This document shows, one piece after another, positions 38,559 through 62,386 of a DNA stretch of 64,000 nucleotides. Positions within the stretch are counted from its first letter, which is position 1; every line of letters begins with the position of its first letter. The position numbers and the translations under genes were made by a program. Below the pieces are notes generated by a model that did not search any database, was not told the DNA's origin, and worked only from the letters and a program-made list of their open reading frames with translations. The stretch spans positions 1,984,001 to 2,048,000 of the forward strand of contig OY730174.1 in NCBI GenBank assembly GCA_963422465.1, written 5' to 3'. This DNA is from Lichina pygmaea (Eukaryota; Ascomycota; Lichinomycetes; Lichinales; Lichinaceae).

Positions 38559-41500
38559 TCAGCCGCTGCACATGACGCAAGCGTCCTTGTTTTGTATGCT
38601 GCCTAGAGGAGGACGATCAAAAGCATCGACGGTCAGCTGTTGATCGTGCGTCTGGCGACGTTGTTTTCCGATGTGAGCATGAGACGATGTCGATCGGACA
38701 AAACTCACATTGCAGCGCCTTGTCGGCGTAGATGTCCGCCTCGCGCTCCTTGCTCGTGCCCTCGCCGTCCTCCTCCTGTTTGAGGCTGCTCACGCCGTTG
38801 ACTGCGACGTCGTCGTCAGCGCCGTGGGCCGCCGTTGGTGATGCGGCCGCCGCCGGCGGGAGCTCATCGTCGTCGGCCTTGGGCGGCGCGGCGGGCGGGT
38901 CGGTGATGAGCAGGCGCGGACTGCTCTCGAGCTCGGTTGCGTCGGTCGACTTACTGCGCGTGGCTTGTGCCGCCGCTCCCGACAGCGAGTCGGTGCGTGA
39001 TTCTGCCGTCCGCTGCGGAGCGGCCGGCGGCGGCGGAGTGGCGCTCGGGGTGACGATGCCGCCGCTCCCGACCGTCCCCGTCGCCGGGTCGGATGACTTC
39101 TGGAGGTACATGGGCCGCGGCACGGCCGACATGGCGTTGCCGTTGGATGCAAACGGTCGCTTCCGAACCCCGCCCGCCCTCGCGACGTTCGTGTCGGCGA
39201 CCTTCAGCTGCTCCTGATCGACGGTGAACTGGATCGGCGCCGAGGCGGCCATGGTGCGCAGGTAGTACATGCCCGTCTTCAGACCGAGCTTCCACCCGGC
39301 AAAGTGCATGCTGGTGATCTTCCCCATCGTCGGCTCCTTCATGTGGATGTTGAGCGACTGCGACTGGTCGATGAAGGCGCCGCGGTCGGCCGCCATCTGC
39401 ACGATCGTGCGCTGAGAAATCTCCCAGACGGTCTTGTACAGAGTCTTGATGTCGGCCGGGACGTTGGGGATGTTCTGGATCGAACCCCCGTCGGAGATGA
39501 TGCGGTTCTTCATGTTGTCCGACCATAGGCCCATGTCCACGAGATCCTTGAGCAGCCACGGGTTGACGACCTGGAACTCGCCCGCCAGCACGCGGCGCGA
39601 GTAGATGTTCGACGTGTACGGCTCGAAGCACTCGTTGAAACCTAGGATCTGGCTCGTGCTGGCGGTCGGCATTGGCGCCACCAGCAGGCTGTTCCGCACG
39701 CCGTGATTGGCGATCTGGCCCTTGAGCGAATCCCAGTCCCACAGGTCCGTCGGCGCCACCTTCCACATGTCGTACTGGAGGATCCCCTTCGAGACCGGCG
39801 ACCCCTCGTACGTGGTGTATGGACCCTCGACCTTGGCGAGGTCGCACGACGCCGTCAACGCAGCGTGGTAGATGGTCTCGAAGATCTGGACGTTGAGTAG
39901 CTTGGCCGCGGCCGACTCGAACGGCAGCCGCAGCGCGAGGAAGGTGTCGGCGAGCCCCTGCACCCCGACCCCGACCGGTCGGTGCCTGAAGTTGCTACGC
40001 CGCGCCTCTTCGACCGGGTAATGATTGACGTCGATGATCTTGTTGAGGTTCCTGATGACCACCTGAGTGACTTCGTGGAGCTTGCCAAAGTCGTACTCGC
40101 CGCGCGTCGAGTCGACGAACGTCGGGAGCGCGAGCGACGCGAGGTTGCAGACCGCCACCTCGTCCGGGCTCGAGTACTCGACGATCTCGGTGCAGAGATT
40201 TGAGCTGCGGATGGTGCCGAGGTTCTGCTGGTTGCTCTTACGGTTGCAAGCGTCTTTGTACAGCATGAACGGATTTCCCGTCTCGGTTTGCGATTCCAGG
40301 ATGGCGTACCAGAGCTTTTGAGCTTTGAATGTCTTGCGGCCTCGTCCTTCGGCCACGTACCTAGAATCTGTCGTCAGTATGTACTGGAGGCATTTATCTT
40401 GTTGTTTTTGGGGGAAGGGGGTTCGGAACGTACTTGTTGTAGAGCGCCTCGAATTCCTCCCCCCAGACGTCTGCCAGACCGGGAGCCTCATTCGGGCAGA
40501 ACAGCGTCCAGTCTCCGTTTTTCTCGACCTGTGACATGAACAGATCCGGGATCCAGAGGGCGAAGAATAGATCCCGAGCCCGGACCTCTTCCTTTCCGTG
40601 GTTCTTTCTCAGATCCAAGAACTCAAAGACGTCGGCGTGCCAGGGCTCGAGGTAGATGGCAAAGGCGCCGGGGCGTTTGTTGCCACCCTGATCGACATAT
40701 CTCGCCGTGTTGTTGAACACCCTTAGCATCGGGACGATGCCGTTGGACGATCCGTTGGTGCCGCCGATGTACGAGCCAGTGGCTCTGATGCGATGGATGT
40801 TGAGGCCGATACCACCGGCGGTCTTGGAGATCATGGCGCACGTCTTCAGCGTGTCGTAGATGCCCTCGATGCTGTCTTCCTTCATATCCACCAGAAAGCA
40901 CGACGACAGCTGCGGCTGCGGAGTACCGGCGTTGAAGAGCGTGGGCGATGCGTGTGTGAAGTACTTGCTCGACATGAGATTGTACGTCTCCAAGACCTTT
41001 TCGACGTCGTCGTCATGTATGCCAACGGCGACCCGCATGATCATATGCTGAGGCCGCTCTGCGACGTTGCCATTGAGCCGTAGCAAATACGATCGTTCCA
41101 GAGTCTTGAAGCCAAAATACTGGTAGTTAAAGTCGCGATCGTAGACGATGGCCGAGTTGAGCTCGTCCGCGTGCCGCATGACGGTCTCAAAGGTCCGTTG
41201 AGAGATCATGGGGGCCCTCTGTCCGTTCTTAGGGTTGACATAGTGATAGAGATCTGATACTACAGACGAAAACTGCTTCTTCGTCTGCTTGTGGAGATTG
41301 GAGACCGCGATGCGGGCTGCAAGGATGGCATAGTCGGGGTGGGTTACGGTCATGTAAGCCGCCGTTTCGGCCGCCTAGGTACGTGACGAACGTCAGCCAC
41401 GGTCACAGTAAATCGACGCGTCGAGTGGTCAGTAGCGGCTGGCTCAGATGGCCACTCACAAGGTTGTCCAGCTCGATCGTGGTGACGCCGTGATAGACGC

Positions 41501-51582: not shown

Positions 51583-52878
51583 ATGGTCTGGACATACAAG
51601 GTACGAGATAGTCTTGTTCTTCAGGACTGGAACAAAACAATGCTGGCACAGATGACAGAGAAGTAAGTAAAGATTCTTAGAATAGTTAACAAGAAGTTAT
51701 ACTGATAAAGTTATATACTAGAGAACATAAATCAGCCTATGAGGCACAGTGGGGGAAGCACTTCCACCCACAAGTTGACAACCCTGACATGGATGATGAA
51801 GAGGTGTTGCAGGCAAAGTTCTGGGGAAAAGTCCACACTAGAGCTTTTACCTCTTGCTTCAGCTGCCGGATCAACAACTTGCCAAGGCCAACAGCTGATC
51901 CTTGTTACGATCCCTGGGATGGGAGCCACTCATTTATAGGCAATCAGGCCGCGGGCCAGGCAAGAGGACACCATGGAAGTCAAGTGACCAACCAACAAGG
52001 GGTCACGTGACTGTCGAGACAAACACGGGTGGCTCGACGCAGCATGCATGAAGCATCGAGACAATCTCACCAGTCTCGATGCAGGATGCAGGAAGCATCG
52101 AGACAGCCTCACCAGTCTCGACGCAGCGTGCATGAAGCAGCGAGACAATCTCACCAGTCTCGACGCAGGGTACATAACATGGTGGGACCGTCGAGACAAT
52201 CTCACCCGTCTCGACGTCGAGACTGTCGAGACAATCTCGATTGTCTCGACAGGCTAGCACTATATAGTCCGGCGATAGTTCCCTTATGGAACGATCGTCT
52301 TCAACTCATGTTGTGATCCAGACAACTAGATCTACTTCAATACAATCTTGTACGAAGCCATTGATCAGGTGTCACCACCACCACGTTCCACCAAACCTCT
52401 TCGCGCTCCTTGACACTCCTCTCCTGCGAGAACCAACCCGCCTTCCGCATCTCGCCCTCAATCCTATACTCGGTTAGGACGGCACGGTACGGACCGCAAC
52501 AATCCTCCTGTGAGTATGGATGATGATGACCTACTTTGTTGCGGGTGTCAGTACAAGGTAAGTACATATATACTTATTCTAGTGAACAAAAGATAGTAGT
52601 ATTATTACTAACATGATATGTATTAGAGAGCCATGATTGAGATGTGGCTTGTTGAAAAGGAAGTCATCCCAGACCCCCCTGCCCCCAAAAGCTCTGGTCA
52701 GTCAGAGCCCAAGGGTATCCACCCAGAAGTCCGGCTCTGGATCATCAAGCTTCTGGAACTACATCTAGGGTGGGCACCTTTTGAGGTGTCAATACTCTTT
52801 GAGTCAGAGTCTGAGAAGGTGCTGGCAATGCCAGGAGCAGCTGCTTTGCTTGAGAGCAGTGACGATAATGTAAATTAA
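51583..52878 (+). pseudogene. Small spliced gene of unknown function, split by a solo LTR
   Basis: Exons: 51583-51662; 51722-51902 continuing at 52507-52557 once the LTR (51903-52501) and one 5-bp target copy are set aside; 52627-52878. The pieces total 564 nt, exactly 188 codons with no internal stop, and both introns have good GTAAGT donors and TTAG/CTAG acceptors (second branch site TACTAAC). The product would have 187 residues: MVWTYKVRDSLVLQDWNKTM at the start, a FWGKVHTRAFTSCFSC segment, an acidic stretch, CCGC, then helical RAMIEMWLVEKEV and VRLWIIKLLELHLGWAPFEV. CxxC...CxxC suggests a small zinc-binding fold (inference). I do not recognise the family. It could be a host gene or part of an unrelated transposon. 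The LTR puts stops in frame, so it is now broken. Confidence 0.6.
51903..52501 (+). mobile_element. Solo LTR (599 bp) with 5-bp target-site duplication
   Basis: It begins TGTTACGATCCC and ends GGACCGCAACA (TG...CA). It is flanked by ATCCT on both sides (51898-51902 and 52502-52506), proving one complete insertion followed by loss of the internal part. About 250 bases of the right half match the 3' LTR of element A in reverse orientation; the left part differs. It contains a 42-bp tandem repeat (52057-52182, three units, CGAGACAATCTCACCAGTCT core). Confidence 0.9.
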
Positions 52879-52921
52879 TTTCTTTAGTAGAAGAAGAATC
52901 TATCTCTTACACTACTATATC

Positions 52922-53105
52922 TAAATTCCAGTCCTCTCTTTCTAGAACTTCATATTCTACTTGGGGTTTCCCATCATGTCTTGTGTACACTGCAATACTC
53001 AGATCTTTACTGAGTTATGCTGTGGGGATCTGGTTCAATCCTCTACGAAAATCTTCTAATATCTCTTCTCTTAGCACATTCCAGAACAAATGCCTGAGAC
53101 TTATT
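52922..53105 (+). mobile_element. Fossil LINE reverse-transcriptase fragment
   Basis: The frame reads RTSYSTWGFPSCLVYTAILR, then SLLSYAVGIWFNPL and LSTFQNKCLRLIG, the conserved C-terminal (thumb/connection) block of Tad1-type non-LTR retrotransposon polymerases (STWG..., YTA..RP.L.YG..W, Q...LR...G). It is cut at its right end by an LTR fragment (53103). No other part of the LINE is seen. Confidence 0.65.
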
Positions 53106-53176
53106 GGATGTTGCGGTCTGTACTGTGCCGTCCTAACCGAGTATAGGATTGAGGGCGAGATGCGGAAGGCAGGTTG
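53103..53176 (-). mobile_element. LTR end fragment (family of element A)
   Basis: Starts TGTTGCGGTCTGTACTG and matches the first about 73 bases of the 53484 LTR before being interrupted by the next fragment. Confidence 0.7.
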
Positions 53177-53483
53177 GTGTTACGACCCAGAAGGGACACA
53201 GTCTTTATACTCACAGAAAGCAGCAGACAGGATACTGGACGGAAGTACCAGACGGCATGACACGGGAAACAGTCACGTGACCGGCGAGACTGACCAGGGG
53301 GTGCTCGCCGCAGCATGCATATGTGTGAGCAGAGTGAGCAGAGCTCGCCCAGCTCGCCGCAGCGTGCATGAACAGTGAGCAAAGTGAGCAGAGCTCGCCC
53401 AGCTCGCTGCAGCATGCATGGACAAGTGAGCAGAGTGAGCAGAGCTCACCCAGCTCGCCGCAGCGTGCATGAACAGTGAGCAA
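53177..53483 (+). mobile_element. LTR start fragment (family of element A), opposite orientation
   Basis: Starts TGTTACGACCCAGAAGGGAC and matches, in reverse complement, the right end of the 53484-54038 LTR, including its GAGCAAAGTGAGCAGAG tandem units. It is truncated where element A's LTR begins. Confidence 0.7.
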
Positions 53484-54038
53484 AGTGAGCAGAGTGTTGC
53501 GGTCCGTACCGTACCGTCCTATCCGAGTATAGGATTAGGGCGAGAGGCGGAAGGCGGGTTGGTTCTCGCAGGAGAGGAGTGTCAAGGAGCGCGAAGGGGT
53601 TTGGTGGAACGTGGTGGTGGTGACACCTGATCAACGGCTTCGTACAAAAGGATTGTATTGAAGTAGATCTAGTTGTCTGGATCACAACATGAGTTGAAGA
53701 CGATCGTTCCATAGGGGAACTATCGCCGGACTATATAGTGCCCAGTTCGTGAGCAGAGTGAGCTCTGCTCACTTTGCTCACTTTTCATGCACGCTGCAGT
53801 GAGCTGGGTGAGCTCTGCTCACTTTGCTCACTTTTCATGCACGCTGCGGTGAGCTGGGTGAGCTCTGCTCACTTTGCTCACTTGTTCGTGCATATGCATG
53901 CTGCGGCGAGCACCCCCTGGTTTGTCTCACCGGTCACGTGACCGGTTCCCGTGTCACGCTGTCTGGTACTTCTGTCCAGTATCCTGTCTGCTGCTTTCTG
54001 TGAGTATATAAAGACTGTGTTCCTCCTGGGTCGTAACA
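53484..54038 (-). mobile_element. 3' LTR of element A
   Basis: In the element's (minus) orientation it runs TGTTACGACCC ... GGACCGCAACA, 555 bp. Directly inside it is a polypurine tract (minus strand GATGGAGAGGAGGATAG, 54039-54056), as required next to a 3' LTR. The middle holds tandem units with CTCTGCTCACTTTGCTCAC and GCATGCAC (53770-53900). A plus-strand TATATAAAG (54005-54013) points inward, antisense to pol. Confidence 0.85.
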
Positions 54039-57793: not shown

Positions 57794-58021
57794 TCACAGG
57801 TGCTTTGTGTTGCTAGGGGTCATGTTGTTGAGCTCCTGATGTCACCCCTTGACAAGGGAGTTCAGTCTTTTCCTGATCAAAGTGTCTTACCACTGACTGG
57901 GCAATGGGTCCAGCCATTCCCATCAGTTCTGAGGAATCTGTTCATGAATTTGTCTTGCTGATGCTTGTCACATCCAGGCTTGAGGCAGTACTGCCAATTG
58001 TCGACGTAGCAGTTGTAGTTG

Positions 58022-58434
58022 TGTTAAAGGCCAGTCCACGTTCACACAGAATGTGGGTGGTCCTGTCTTCGACCGAGGAGGGCAGGGACTCAATAGATGA
58101 ATAGCAAGTGGGGTAACTCTCTTGCTATTGTCACTCGTAATGTGTGTTCAGCCTGGAGAGCTATTCTCTCCGGCTATCTGGGTTCTTATATACAGGAGCC
58201 TGAGGGGGGGGGGTCCTCCCGAGGGGTATCAGCTTTCTGCGTGGACGAGCTGGACGAGCTGGTTACACATCGTCCACCTCGTCCACCGGGTCGGGTGAAC
58301 ATTGTTCCTGTGGACAAGCTGGACGAGCTGGTTACACATCGTCCACCTTGTCCACCGGGTCGGGTGAACATTGTTCCGTGTACCTCTGTACACTCGCTTC
58401 GGTCAGCTCAGCCGTTCCGGCCTGGGCCTTAACA
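58022..58434 (-). mobile_element. 3' LTR of element B (413 bp)
   Basis: Plus-strand ends TGTTAAAGGCC ... GGCCTTAACA. It contains a 69-bp tandem duplication (58241-58309 and 58310-58378) made of GTGGACGAGCTGG and TCGTCCACC arms, and a TATATA at 58187-58192 that reads as TATATAAG in the sense (minus) direction. Confidence 0.9.
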
Positions 58435-58486
58435 CCATCCCCTCCCTCCAAAGGTTCTGTCCCCAGATCCTCTCGCTTCTCTTACC

Positions 58487-58969
58487 ATGACCCGGACATC
58501 TCGTTGTAATCGTCGTGGAGTCCTCGGTTCTCGTGTTGGCAAGATGGGCAAGGTATCCAAAGTTTCATGCAGCGCATGTCGTCGTGACCGTGCCAAGTGT
58601 GTCGTCAGTTCAGAGTCCACATTTTGCGGTCAGTGCCTTGAGAAGAGTCGCCGTTGCGATCTCCATCTCGCGGAGTCGGAGTGGGAGAAGATGGAGCTTG
58701 AGCGCACTCAGCTTGAGGCTCAACTGAAGGAGATCGAGGAGCAGGAGTCTGTTCTCCTTCCTCGCAAACTTCGTCTCCGTCGTCAGTTGGGTGTGTTGTC
58801 CAAGAAGGAGGGTGAGGCCATCAAGCGTGAGCTTGCTGCGATTGAGGATCAGGAGAATCTTGAGCAGGAGGCTACGCGTGTGGAGTCCCCGCCGCCTTTG
58901 GAGGACTTCTTCTCTTCGGAGGCTTTGGCTTCTCTCGAGCCTTTGTCTCCATCGATCCTGGCTTCCTAA
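58487..58969 (+). CDS. Antisense accessory protein of element B: Zn2Cys6 cluster plus coiled coil, intact
   Basis: Plus strand, antisense to the end of pol, between pol and the 3' LTR; 160 residues without a stop. Cysteines read C-x2-C-x6-C-x8-C-x2-C-x6-C (CSACRRDRAKC to CGQCLEKSRRC), an exact Zn2Cys6 pattern with the basic residues expected between Cys2 and Cys3. A Glu/Leu/Lys-rich region (about 65-125) with heptad-like leucines follows, predicting a dimerising coiled coil, then an acidic Pro/Ser tail (ESPPPLEDFFSSEALASLEP). It has the same order as the antisense ORF in element A although the sequences are very different. It is intact while gag and pol are broken. Its end overlaps the pol 3' end. 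Expression could start in the LTR. Function unknown; a DNA-binding regulator of the element is the natural guess. Confidence 0.75.
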   Translation: MTRTSRCNRRGVLGSRVGKMGKVSKVSCSACRRDRAKCVVSSESTFCGQCLEKSRRCDLHLAESEWEKMELERTQLEAQLKEIEEQESVLLPRKLRLRRQLGVLSKKEGEAIKRELAAIEDQENLEQEATRVESPPPLEDFFSSEALASLEPLSPSILAS

Positions 58970-61900
58970 CCACTTGACCAGGTATTCGATTTTCCGTCCG
59001 CTTCTCCGGCTGTCTAGGATCCTTTCGACATCGTACTCTTCTTCGTCGTCCTCGAAGTGCCATTCTGTTTCGATTGCTGCGTCGCTGGGTGCTGGCTCGA
59101 GCAGCGAGACATGGAATACTCGGTGTATCCGTGCCTTTTTTGGCAGTCTCAGTCGGTAGTTGACTTCTCCAGTGCACTTCTCAATCTCAAACAGTCTGAT
59201 TCGTACATGATCCAGCTTTTTGCTTGGTCACTTCGAGCGCAGGTTTTTTGTTGACAAATAGACCTTATCCCCCCTCTCCAGGGTTGGTCCCTTCAACCTT
59301 TTGCTGTTTAGGCGGTGGCTTGTTGTCTTTTGTGCAGATTCAATTGCAGTCTTCATTTCCTCATGCATAGCAGTGAGTTTTTCGACGTTTGTTGAAGTGC
59401 CACTTCCAGCCGCCATCGCTTCCCAGCGGGGGTTTCTGCCGTAGTTCGCAAAGAACGGCGTCATGCCCATCACGCTGTGTTGCTGATCGTTGTACGCAAA
59501 CTGAGCCATTGGTAGCAGTTCTACCCAATCGTCCTGTCGGTGGTTGACGTAGTGGCGTAGGTACTGTTCCATCGTCTGGTTTGTTCTCTCAGTTTGTCCG
59601 TCTGTTTGTGGATGGTAGGCAGTAGACATCCTCGTGTCTATCCCTAGCTGTCTTGTCCACGTGTTCCAGAATTTCGAGGTGAAGAGTTTGTCTCGATCCG
59701 AGATAATCTTCGTGGGTAGTCCTCGCTGGCTAACCAATTCTTTGAGCAGGACATTGGCGAGTTCGCTCGCTGTTCCTGTCTCTCGCCACGGGATCAGGTG
59801 AGCGTATTTGGTGAGTTTGTCAACAACCACCAAGATACTGTCATATTTCACCTTTGTTACCGGGTCCTCTGACCTCGGCAGCTTCACCACAAAATCCATT
59901 GTGATAGTATCCCAAGCCGCTTCTGGGAGGTCCATTTGTTGACTCTCTCCATAGGGTTTGTGGCGTGACGGTTTGTTTTTCGCACACTCTTCGCAGTTGT
60001 GAATAAATTCCGTCACTTTCCGCTTCATTCCGTTGAAGTGGTAACATCTCCAGATCTTTTCCAGGGTCTTGTCTCACCCAGGATGTCTGTGTAGAGGTCC
60101 ATCGTGATGTTGTCGAATCACGTCCTCTTGTGCGCTCTCTGGCACTTCTTCCTTGTTCGTGGCCGCAACGTTGTGGCCTAGGGTCAGGAGTGCACCCATT
60201 TCTTCAGTTCTCGCTAACTGAGGTTGAGCATAGACCAGAGTTTGTCCTTTTGTCACTAGGATTGGGCGCTCTTCTGTCGTGTCGTCTGTCGTCATATCAG
60301 GCCGCCTGCTAAGCGCGTCCGCTCGTGCGTTTTCTGATCCTTTTCGATAGAAGATCTGGAAGTCGTATGAAGCTAAAAGCTCCGCCCATCGGACTTGTCG
60401 TCTGTTTAGCTTCTTCGTTGTCGTGAAGTAAGCCAAGTTCTTGTGGTCTGAGTACACGTCCACTGTGTACTTTGCTCCTTCCAGGTAAGGTCTCCACTCC
60501 TGGAATGTGTCGACAATCGCTAACAACTCCTTGTCGTGAACATCGTACCTGAGTTCTGGGCCAGAGAACTTTCTCGATCAGTATGCGACAGGGTGTAGGC
60601 GGTTTTCGGCGTCTGGTTGACACAAGCAAGATCCAAGTGCTTGGTCTGAGGCATCTGTCTCCATGATGATCCGCCGTCCGGGATCAAATGATGCCAGTAT
60701 GGGTGCGGAGGTGAACTTCTCTTTCAGCTCCTGGAACGCTCTCTCTTGGCTGTTCCCCCATGTGAAGGTTTCTTCCTTCTTTGTTAGTTCAGTCAAGGGT
60801 GCTGCTGTCCTTGAGTACTCCTTGATGAATCGTCAGTAGAAGTTCGCAAATCCTAGGAAGGATTGGACTTCTTTGAGGTTTTTGGGTGTTGGCCAGTCTT
60901 GTACTGCCGTGATCTTTGTATCGTCCATACGGATTCCTTCCGTCGTCAGGATCGATCCCAAATATTCCACTTCTTTCACGTGGAAGACGCTCTTATCAAG
61001 GCGTAACCTCATTCCTGCTTCTTGGAGTGCATGTAGGATCTTCTTGACATGCTGTCTGTGCTCCTCCAGGGTTCCATTGGTGTAAACCAAGACATCGTCG
61101 ATATAAGCGGTAACAAATATATCCAGGTATTGTCGGAGGATGGTGTTAATGAGTGATTGGAACATCGCCGGTGCATTCGTAAGGCCGAATGGCATAACAG
61201 TATACTCGTAATGCCCGTACCTCGTACGAAAGGCTGTCTTCCATTCTTCGCCATCTTTCATCCTAACCAGGTTGAAAGCGCCTCGGATGTCGAACTTGGT
61301 AAACCACTTGGCTCCTTGGATTTGGTCCTGGATTTCCGATATTAACGGTAGCGGGTAGCGATTCTTAATCGTGATCGCATTAAGCTGCCGGTAGTCGACA
61401 CACAGTCGTAATTTGCCGTCTTTCTTTGGCACAAACAATATCGGGTATCCGGCCGGTGATGTTGAAGGTCTTATGAACCCTTTCGCTAGGTTCTCGTCCA
61501 GGTAATCTCTTAGGGCCTCAAGCTCCTTTGCTGATAGAGCGTAAATAGGGCCATGTGTGGGTTTCTTTCCGTCTTCCAGCGGAATTTCGTGATCCCACTC
61601 TTGGTGTTCCGGTAGCGTCGCGACCGCTTCCTCACCAAACATCTCCTGGTAGTCTTTATACTCACTTGGCAGCTGCGGTGCCTGAGTCTCGCCCACGGTG
61701 TCATGCGTGGTGCAAAGTTGATGGTTTCGGGGCTTCATCCAAGCCACATAGGCTTGCCCTCGCCGGTGGTGCTTCTTCCACCCTGCATATGAGATCTCTT
61801 TGATTCTCACTTTCTCTGGCTCTGCTCGAGTTGCCAGACTCCTCTTCGGAAAGACTAGGTGCCTTCTTTTCCAGTCGATCCTTGGGTTTTGACTTTCCAA

Positions 61901-62386
61901 CCACGGAAGACCCAATATAACTTCATGTGGTATCTGGACCAAGTCGAATTCTTCTGATCCGATTGTCGTACTGTCGACACACAGTCGTAGGTTCTTGGTC
62001 TCCTTCATCACTCGTCCTTGGTTGTTGGAGAGTGGTGTCCCGTCCACTACTGTTAGTTGGTATGGATTCCTCTTTTCCTGAGTCGGGATCTTGTGCTTCC
62101 TGGCGAAACTTTCTGACATGAAGTTGCCAGTAGCTCCAGAGTTGATCATGGTGTTCGTCAGATGCCCGTTGACTCTCATCCTGATGCGAAAATGCGGACT
62201 GCAGGCTGTCGCGTCGAGGCTCTGCTCGACCCCTTCTCTCCGGAGTGTTGTCTTGCCTGCTCTTCCGACTCCGGATTTGAAGAGCACTGCTAGTTTTTTG
62301 AACAACCAAGACCCTGAGCCTGGCGTTCTGCCACGTGTCTTTCGCATTTTTCGGTGAAGCATAGCTCCCATGCGTCTTCTCCACAA
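58970..62386 (-). pseudogene. Element B pol, broken by four in-frame TGA codons
   Basis: One frame from about 62386 to about 58970. Protease reads MINSGATGNFMS, with Asn in place of the catalytic Asp (DSGA becomes NSGA). RT: PEHQEWDHEIPL, VDYRQLNAITIKNRYPLP, YIDDVLVYT (intact YxDD), FLGFANFY. RNase H: METDASDQALGSC, YDVHDKELLAIV, VYSDHKNLAYFTTTK. Integrase: HPG, FIHNCEECAKNK, MDFVVKLPRSEDP, STAYHPQTDGQTERTN. Chromodomain: YDVERILDSRRSGRKIEYLV (about 58990-59060). TGA codons have lowest bases 60833, 60578, 60074 and 59228; the first aligns with Arg in element A. The 62386 end overlaps gag in another frame by about 97 bases, as expected for gag-to-pol frameshifting. The exact 3' end is uncertain. 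Confidence 0.88.

Follow-up and report, generated by a model that had tools for sequence, protein, structure and literature searches.

We examined an open reading frame (ORF) in a 64,000-nucleotide stretch of the Lichina pygmaea genome (contig OY730174.1; hereafter the window) that lies antisense to a Ty3/gypsy chromovirus, element A, and adjoins its 3' long terminal repeat (LTR). The ORF is a protein gene under purifying selection, and this selection is strongest in the zinc segment, a stretch with six cysteines, in the two subfamilies A and B of the element. A second chromovirus, E2, holds an antisense frame in the same place and orientation relative to the element. We give a rough probability of 0.55 to the reading that the ORF is a chromovirus accessory gene whose product would act as a DNA-binding dimer on the LTRs of its own family.

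Translation of the window bore out both the 160-codon plus-strand ORF and the cysteine spacing described in an earlier note on this DNA (Table 1), and the coiled coil proposed to follow the cysteines corresponds to a long helix predicted by AlphaFold2. Two other parts of that description need amending. The ORF was placed between the end of pol and the 3' LTR; it does adjoin the LTR side, but the pol frame of copy L013 ends opposite ORF codon ~129, and the last quarter of the ORF therefore overlaps pol. The ORF was also called intact, and its frame is indeed open, but the window copy lacks ~94 bp and with them the last 16 ORF codons and the second half of the chromodomain. This deletion is the reason that the window ORF encodes 160 amino acids when the family length is 176.

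A protein search of the host genome (32.47 Mb, eight contigs) scored 150 matches of 290 candidates. Among these, 61 at 83–100% identity form subfamily A, and the rest, at 59–71%, comprise subfamily B and older copies. We retrieved 60 A copies: 51 encode 176 amino acids, the frame is open for 155 or more residues in 54, the ATG is kept in 57, and all six cysteines are kept in 54. An open 190-amino-acid frame (subfamily B) was found in 14 of 20 non-A loci, a fraction biased by hand-picking good and varied loci from the 90 remaining match rows, and the six-cysteine spacing is kept in 12 of these 14 open copies. Both the A and B frames start at ATG, and the length differences between them are in frame.

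Selection was analyzed on full open frames (51 of 60 A copies and 14 of 20 B/C copies, the others being dropped), with the segment and six-frame ratios taken from one pair, L013 (A) and L074 (B). Over the 122 codons of this pair outside the pol overlap, there are 26, 17, and 49 differences at codon positions 1, 2, and 3, and the ratio of nonsynonymous to synonymous substitution rates (dN/dS) is 0.218 by NG86 (dN 0.19, dS 0.87) and 0.161 by YN00. In each of the remaining five frames there are 3–8 stop columns, and their ratios run from 0.48 to 2.75. Since stops occur in all three sense frames, an intact hidden sense gene cannot cause the conservation of the ORF. Broken down by segment, NG86 ratios are 0.917 for residues 1–24, 0.072 for residues 25–60 (zinc), 0.199 for residues 61–128 (coil), and 0.339 for residues 129–176 (the pol overlap, where ORF values of 0.32–0.34 were obtained). 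Across 238 A–B pairs (17 of the 51 A copies against 14 B copies), the median dN/dS is 0.257 (range 0.214–0.313); within subfamilies the values are 0.62 for A (first 30 copies) and 0.33 for B.

Two further tests bear on this result. When the A–B differences were placed at random, under a null that preserved base types but not CpG context, none of 5000 trials gave as few nonsynonymous codons as the 36 observed (random mean 57.5, standard deviation 3.5), and the frame stayed open in 5.9% of trials. In a McDonald–Kreitman-like comparison, the counts of nonsynonymous and synonymous changes outside the overlap were 39:39 for fixed differences versus 107:51 for polymorphisms (p = 0.010), and within the overlap they were 17:11 versus 44:31 (p = 1.0).

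Zn2Cys6 clusters have the spacing C-x2-C-x6-C-x(5-12)-C-x2-C-x(6-8)-C, and the ORF product also conforms to the cysteine spacing of the Pfam family Zn_clus (PF00172). Scores against this family were 14.0 bits for the window ORF, 15.7 for copy L012, and 16.1 for copy L073, all below the gathering score of 21 bits, and we therefore label the product Zn2Cys6-like. At an E-value of 0.5, Zn_clus matches 13 of the 24 members of an alignment of the family (A1), the best with an E-value of 0.0071. The AlphaFold2 model has a block mean predicted local distance difference test (pLDDT) score above 90 for residues 71–120. All 17 Foldseek matches of the model are Zn2Cys6 proteins, none of them individually significant, and the model superposes on 1cld, which we take to be Lac9, at 1.9 Å over 33 residues. 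A profile search of PDB sequences with alignment A1 gave no match up to an E-value of 1, and in an NCBIfam scan all matches fell far below the cut-off. Protein-database searches returned 19, 23, and 81 matches without Pfam domains, the third having scored 7995 candidates only. We also considered a Gag-type CCHC zinc knuckle, but by the definition of that motif a histidine is required, and the ORF motif has none in place.

The Gal4-type cluster named in the earlier note thus draws support from the spacing, the sub-threshold Zn_clus match, and the uniform class of the Foldseek matches; a zinc-cluster fold of the A/B product is supported but not proven. With Gal4, Put3, Ppr1, Lac9, and Hap1, the A product shares the spacing, basic residues between cysteines 2 and 3, and a following predicted coiled coil, and its modeled fold may be similar. 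It differs from factors of this type in scoring below the Pfam threshold, in its length of 160–190 amino acids without a long effector domain, and in being encoded by a retrotransposon.

The same design recurs in E2. Eight E2 loci were chosen for long open frames among 150 match rows, and this choice biases the open fraction of seven in eight (166 amino acids); all seven open copies keep the six cysteines. Between E2a and E2b (L096 versus L102, 165 codons), differences at the three codon positions number 34, 25, and 78, and dN/dS is 0.151, a ratio from one pair with dS at 1.26, near saturation. The other five E2 frames hold stops, and one sense-strand frame has a ratio of 0.258. Protein-level purifying selection is also present in E2, as measured in this one pair. 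Database proteins at 56–62% identity keep the E2 design, four of them with a loop one residue shorter. Zn2Cys6 folds are not singled out for the E2 product: two Zn2Cys6 entries occur among the 50 Foldseek matches listed of 76, and Zn_clus matches 2 of 14 members of the E2-type alignment (best E-value 0.24). We also considered whether the A and E2 products are homologous, which we do not claim (hhalign probability 22.6%, E-value 0.0009). In alignment A3, which holds 14 E2-type proteins, one protein matches Pfam zf-PHD-like (E-value 0.0029) and one matches DUF3716 (E-value 0.055).

The LTRs offer candidate targets for such a protein. Half-sites around GTGGACGAGC/GCTCGTCCAC stand in inverted orientation within tandem units of the A and B LTRs, and GGACGAGC is present four times in the A LTR and seven times in the B LTR, versus zero times in pol (2252 nt). 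Inverted 8-mer pairs number 14 in the A LTR and 16 in the B LTR against ~0.4 in shuffles, and the E2 array of GTGAGCAGAG/CTCTGCTCAC, which is unlike that of A and B, has 8 pairs against 0.17, where the shuffles keep base composition only and the observed numbers are inflated by tandem duplication. Other motifs contribute to these counts: the A and B LTRs each include two pairs of the AATAGCAA type, and a ACCGGTCA palindrome accounts for two of the eight E2 pairs. The element A 3' LTR of the window itself has nine inverted pairs; among 154 stretches of 413 bp in the window, taken as a control, seven have at least eight, including the E2 LTR region and one simple repeat. Judged by their layout, the LTR arrays are such as a dimeric DNA-binding protein might bind. 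We also observed GGACGAGC/GCTCGTCC nine times outside the element in the window, mostly at 14–22 kb and also at 41161.

Our evidence for selection comes from the divergence of A and B and not from the openness of the window copy, which the lack of CGA codons largely explains. Stops were compared in 55 of the 60 A copies; five non-collinear copies, the window copy included, were dropped. The last 798 pol codons of these copies contain 246 stops and the ORF contains six, so that the ORF is stop-free in 49 copies and the pol segment in one. CGA codons account for 214 of the 246 pol stops; CGA is absent from the 19 arginine codons of the ORF of L013 and makes up 19 of the 60 in pol (p = 0.004). 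At CAA, CAG, and TGG, stops are infrequent in both: per site and copy, pol has 0.007, 0, and 0.026 and the ORF 0.018, 0.012, and 0.018. The decay that followed insertion appears neutral, with the frame surviving by codon choice and selection having acted in lineages that were still mobile. Of the two reasons that the earlier note had offered for survival of the ORF among broken sense genes, a scarcity of vulnerable CGA codons is therefore the one favored for individual copies; selection since insertion was rejected as the cause of the open window copy, as the stop counts point to the CGA codon effect.

Two observations on nucleotide composition accompany this analysis. The TGA stops at CGA codons and the CpG bias point to a CpG-directed mutation process in these repeats. 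In copy L013 the arginine codons of the ORF are confined to CGT, CGC, and CGG, with CGA, AGA, and AGG all absent, and pol uses mainly CGA and AGA; this difference may hint at a separate origin of the two.

In the reading that we favor, an antisense promoter at the edge of the LTR would drive expression of a small protein in which the Zn2Cys6-like cluster and the coiled coil would give a dimer. The LTRs of its own family contain tandem inverted repeats, and by binding to them this dimer would control sense transcription of sister copies, either as an activator or as a repressor. The proposal that the element carries its own antisense-coded regulator is accordingly upheld with respect to a selected protein gene (dN/dS 0.22 overall and 0.07 in the zinc segment), and we infer the regulatory part from the LTR arrays.

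Selection shows that the protein is useful and says nothing of its task. The protein could instead serve in nuclear import of the pre-integration complex, in integration targeting, or as a nucleic-acid chaperone, and we regard this as unlikely but the most serious alternative. Roles like those of retroviral accessory proteins, some of them nuclear, have been proposed for antisense ORF products, according to passages of a review (PMC7264820). Another job of this kind fits less well with a dN/dS that is lowest in the zinc segment and with the DNA target that the LTR arrays offer.

We assign a somewhat smaller chance to an anti-silencing factor that, like VANC, would bind repeats in its own non-coding DNA and lift chromatin silencing or cytosine methylation, given that a zinc cluster plus coiled coil is typical of transcription factors. 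Several observations are in keeping with such a factor. Decay of the copies is mainly C/T and G/A, with 3771 of 5227 differences from L013, counted in the 55 collinear A copies, being of these types in CpG context, which makes a repeat-directed process likely. The candidate target repeats of A and B differ in sequence and number, and the targets of VANC are described (PMC5735166) as often being tandem repeats that vary between related elements.

It is improbable that the antisense RNA alone matters, through double-stranded RNA or transcriptional interference, and that the frame is incidental: non-coding antisense transcripts are known in other elements (PMC7264820, in part), but the codon-position bias and the dN/dS of 0.15–0.22 in two families need selection on a protein. 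Less credible still is a chance frame held open by a codon make-up without CGA, which would explain survival after insertion through the stop counts above but is contradicted by the tests between subfamilies (no neutral placement in 5000, in-frame length differences, an ATG in both A and B) and by the shared design and dN/dS of E2.

Comparison of L013 (A) with L092 (B) in 60-base blocks showed pol to be 95–100% identical and the ORF and U3 ~60–85% identical; the outer ~120–155 bp of the LTR, on the R–U5 side, are 97–100% identical. Under the retroviral replication scheme, this pattern would arise if reverse transcription changed templates once within pol, with U3 and the ORF coming from one parent and R–U5 and pol from the other, and A and B would then be mosaics. 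Because a single switch explains the joint divergence of U3 and the ORF, their functional coevolution was set aside and is kept as a possibility alone.

Element A can be classed as a Ty3/gypsy chromovirus by the chromodomain that is recognizable by eye at the integrase end of the pol frame of L012 and L013. Its 5' LTR extends ~285 bases past the window, differs from the 3' LTR at 6 of 412 positions, and is directly followed by a 5-bp target-site duplication, AGTTG, that also occupies 58017–58021. The in-frame stops of pol, counted from 62386 to 59000 in pol alone, lie at 60835, 60580, 60076, and 59230, and the first residue of the protease motif is expected to be Asp. Element A adjoins E2, whose pol remains lie at ~54.5–57.8 kb on the same strand, and it appears to be nested in E2. 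The ORF has the features of an additional antisense ORF between pol and the 3' LTR (aORF-3R): it runs against gag-pol, adjoins the 3' LTR, and recurs in many copies, as judged from copies found through the ORF itself; the overlap with the end of pol is additional. The presumed LTR edge of E2, at 54038 with TATATAAAG inside it, was placed from terminal sequence and not from a second LTR. The stretch 52014–54008, in and beyond the E2 3' LTR region, is densely filled with tandem and inverted repeats, including 42- and ~50-bp units.

Table 1. Coordinates of the antisense ORF, element A, and E2 features in the window.
Feature	Position	Strand	Basis or remark
Antisense ORF P0001	58487–58969	+	160 codons from ATG; family length 176 amino acids
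Six-cysteine cluster C-x2-C-x6-C-x8-C-x2-C-x6-C, residues 28–57	58568–58657	+	translation
Predicted long helix/coiled coil, residues 61–133	58667–58885	+	AlphaFold2 model
Tail-to-tail ORF/pol overlap, codons 129 onward	58872–58969	.	position transferred from copy L013
Junction of ~94-bp deletion (reference: copies L012, L013)	58965–58966	.	copy comparison
Element A 3' LTR	58022–58434	-	LTR pair comparison
Candidate operator: two ~68-bp tandem repeats with inverted GTGGACGAG/CTCGTCCAC half-sites	58241–58377	.	element A 3' LTR
Polypurine tract GGAGGGAGGGGATGG beside LTR	58435–58449	-	read from sequence; pyrimidine-rich on ORF strand
pol of element A	59228–62386	-	four in-frame stops; protease motif NSGATGN
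Element A 5' LTR	from 63873, past window end, to ~64285		LTR pair comparison
E2 antisense frame, C-x2-C-x6-C-x11-C-x2-C-x6-C and predicted helix	54082–54582	+	three internal stops in window copy
Tandem inverted-repeat array GTGAGCAGAG/CTCTGCTCAC, presumed E2 3' LTR	53749–53881	.	inverted-repeat count
TATATAAAG, candidate antisense TATA box	54005–54013	+	77 bp upstream of E2 antisense ATG

Antisense genes beside a 3' LTR have precedents. HBZ of human T-cell leukemia virus type 1 (HTLV-1) is an antisense bZIP regulator coded at the 3' LTR; the A product resembles it as a putative antisense-coded coiled-coil regulator in the same location, although the fold differs and no relationship is claimed. 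The HTLV antisense promoter lies inside the 3' LTR, according to the portion of the review consulted (PMC7264820). Plant ORFs in antisense orientation close to this LTR are described in the same portion (maize Grande gene23, rice RIRE2, Silene Retand, and bean PvRetro13) and match the A ORF in position, orientation, and presence in many copies; the Grande product is reported to be nuclear, and an antisense promoter lies upstream of gene23. Unlike the A ORF, these plant ORFs are not described there as having a zinc cluster, and PvRetro13 is noted as having an SMC domain (PMC7264820). In fungi, the Boty-like Ty3/gypsy elements of Botrytis cinerea carry brtn as an antisense gene (Zhao et al., 2011, Virology, as cited in passages of PMC8365987 and PMC7264820), and a Monilinia transcript is reported to resemble truncated Pol and BRTN (PMC5987419, in part); we liken brtn to the A ORF by description only. 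VANC of Arabidopsis VANDAL is likewise encoded by its own element, and its targets are tandem repeats that change from one related element to another; it differs in coming from a plant and in having demonstrated anti-silencing activity, and the likeness to the A product is again by description only (PMC5735166, in part).

According to the consulted passages of the 2020 review, the function of antisense ORFs was unknown and no clear similarity to other proteins had been described (PMC7264820). In our literature search, we met no antisense retrotransposon ORF described as having a zinc cluster, a weakly supported negative because subscription papers, including that on brtn, lay outside the search. 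The words 'antisense' and 'zinc' are absent from the main text of a Blastomyces LTR paper (PMC11540331) and of the H. ohiense genome paper (PMC13334192). Antisense ORFs in this position are thus known, and the literature searched yielded none that combines a zinc cluster with selection computed in two families.

A DNA-binding design, protein-level selection, and a candidate target sequence together make the question of function directly testable. It is possible, although we lean against it, that at least two chromovirus families here carry antisense-coded, self-recognizing zinc-cluster regulators that would bind palindrome arrays in their own LTRs, as fungal counterparts of HBZ or VANC. One template switch would then move a regulator and its U3 onto a shared pol, and elements could swap 'regulatory identities' and so escape or impose copy-number control. 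If our favored reading is true, fungal retrotransposons would carry their own transcription factors, possibly acting on host genes near scattered LTRs.
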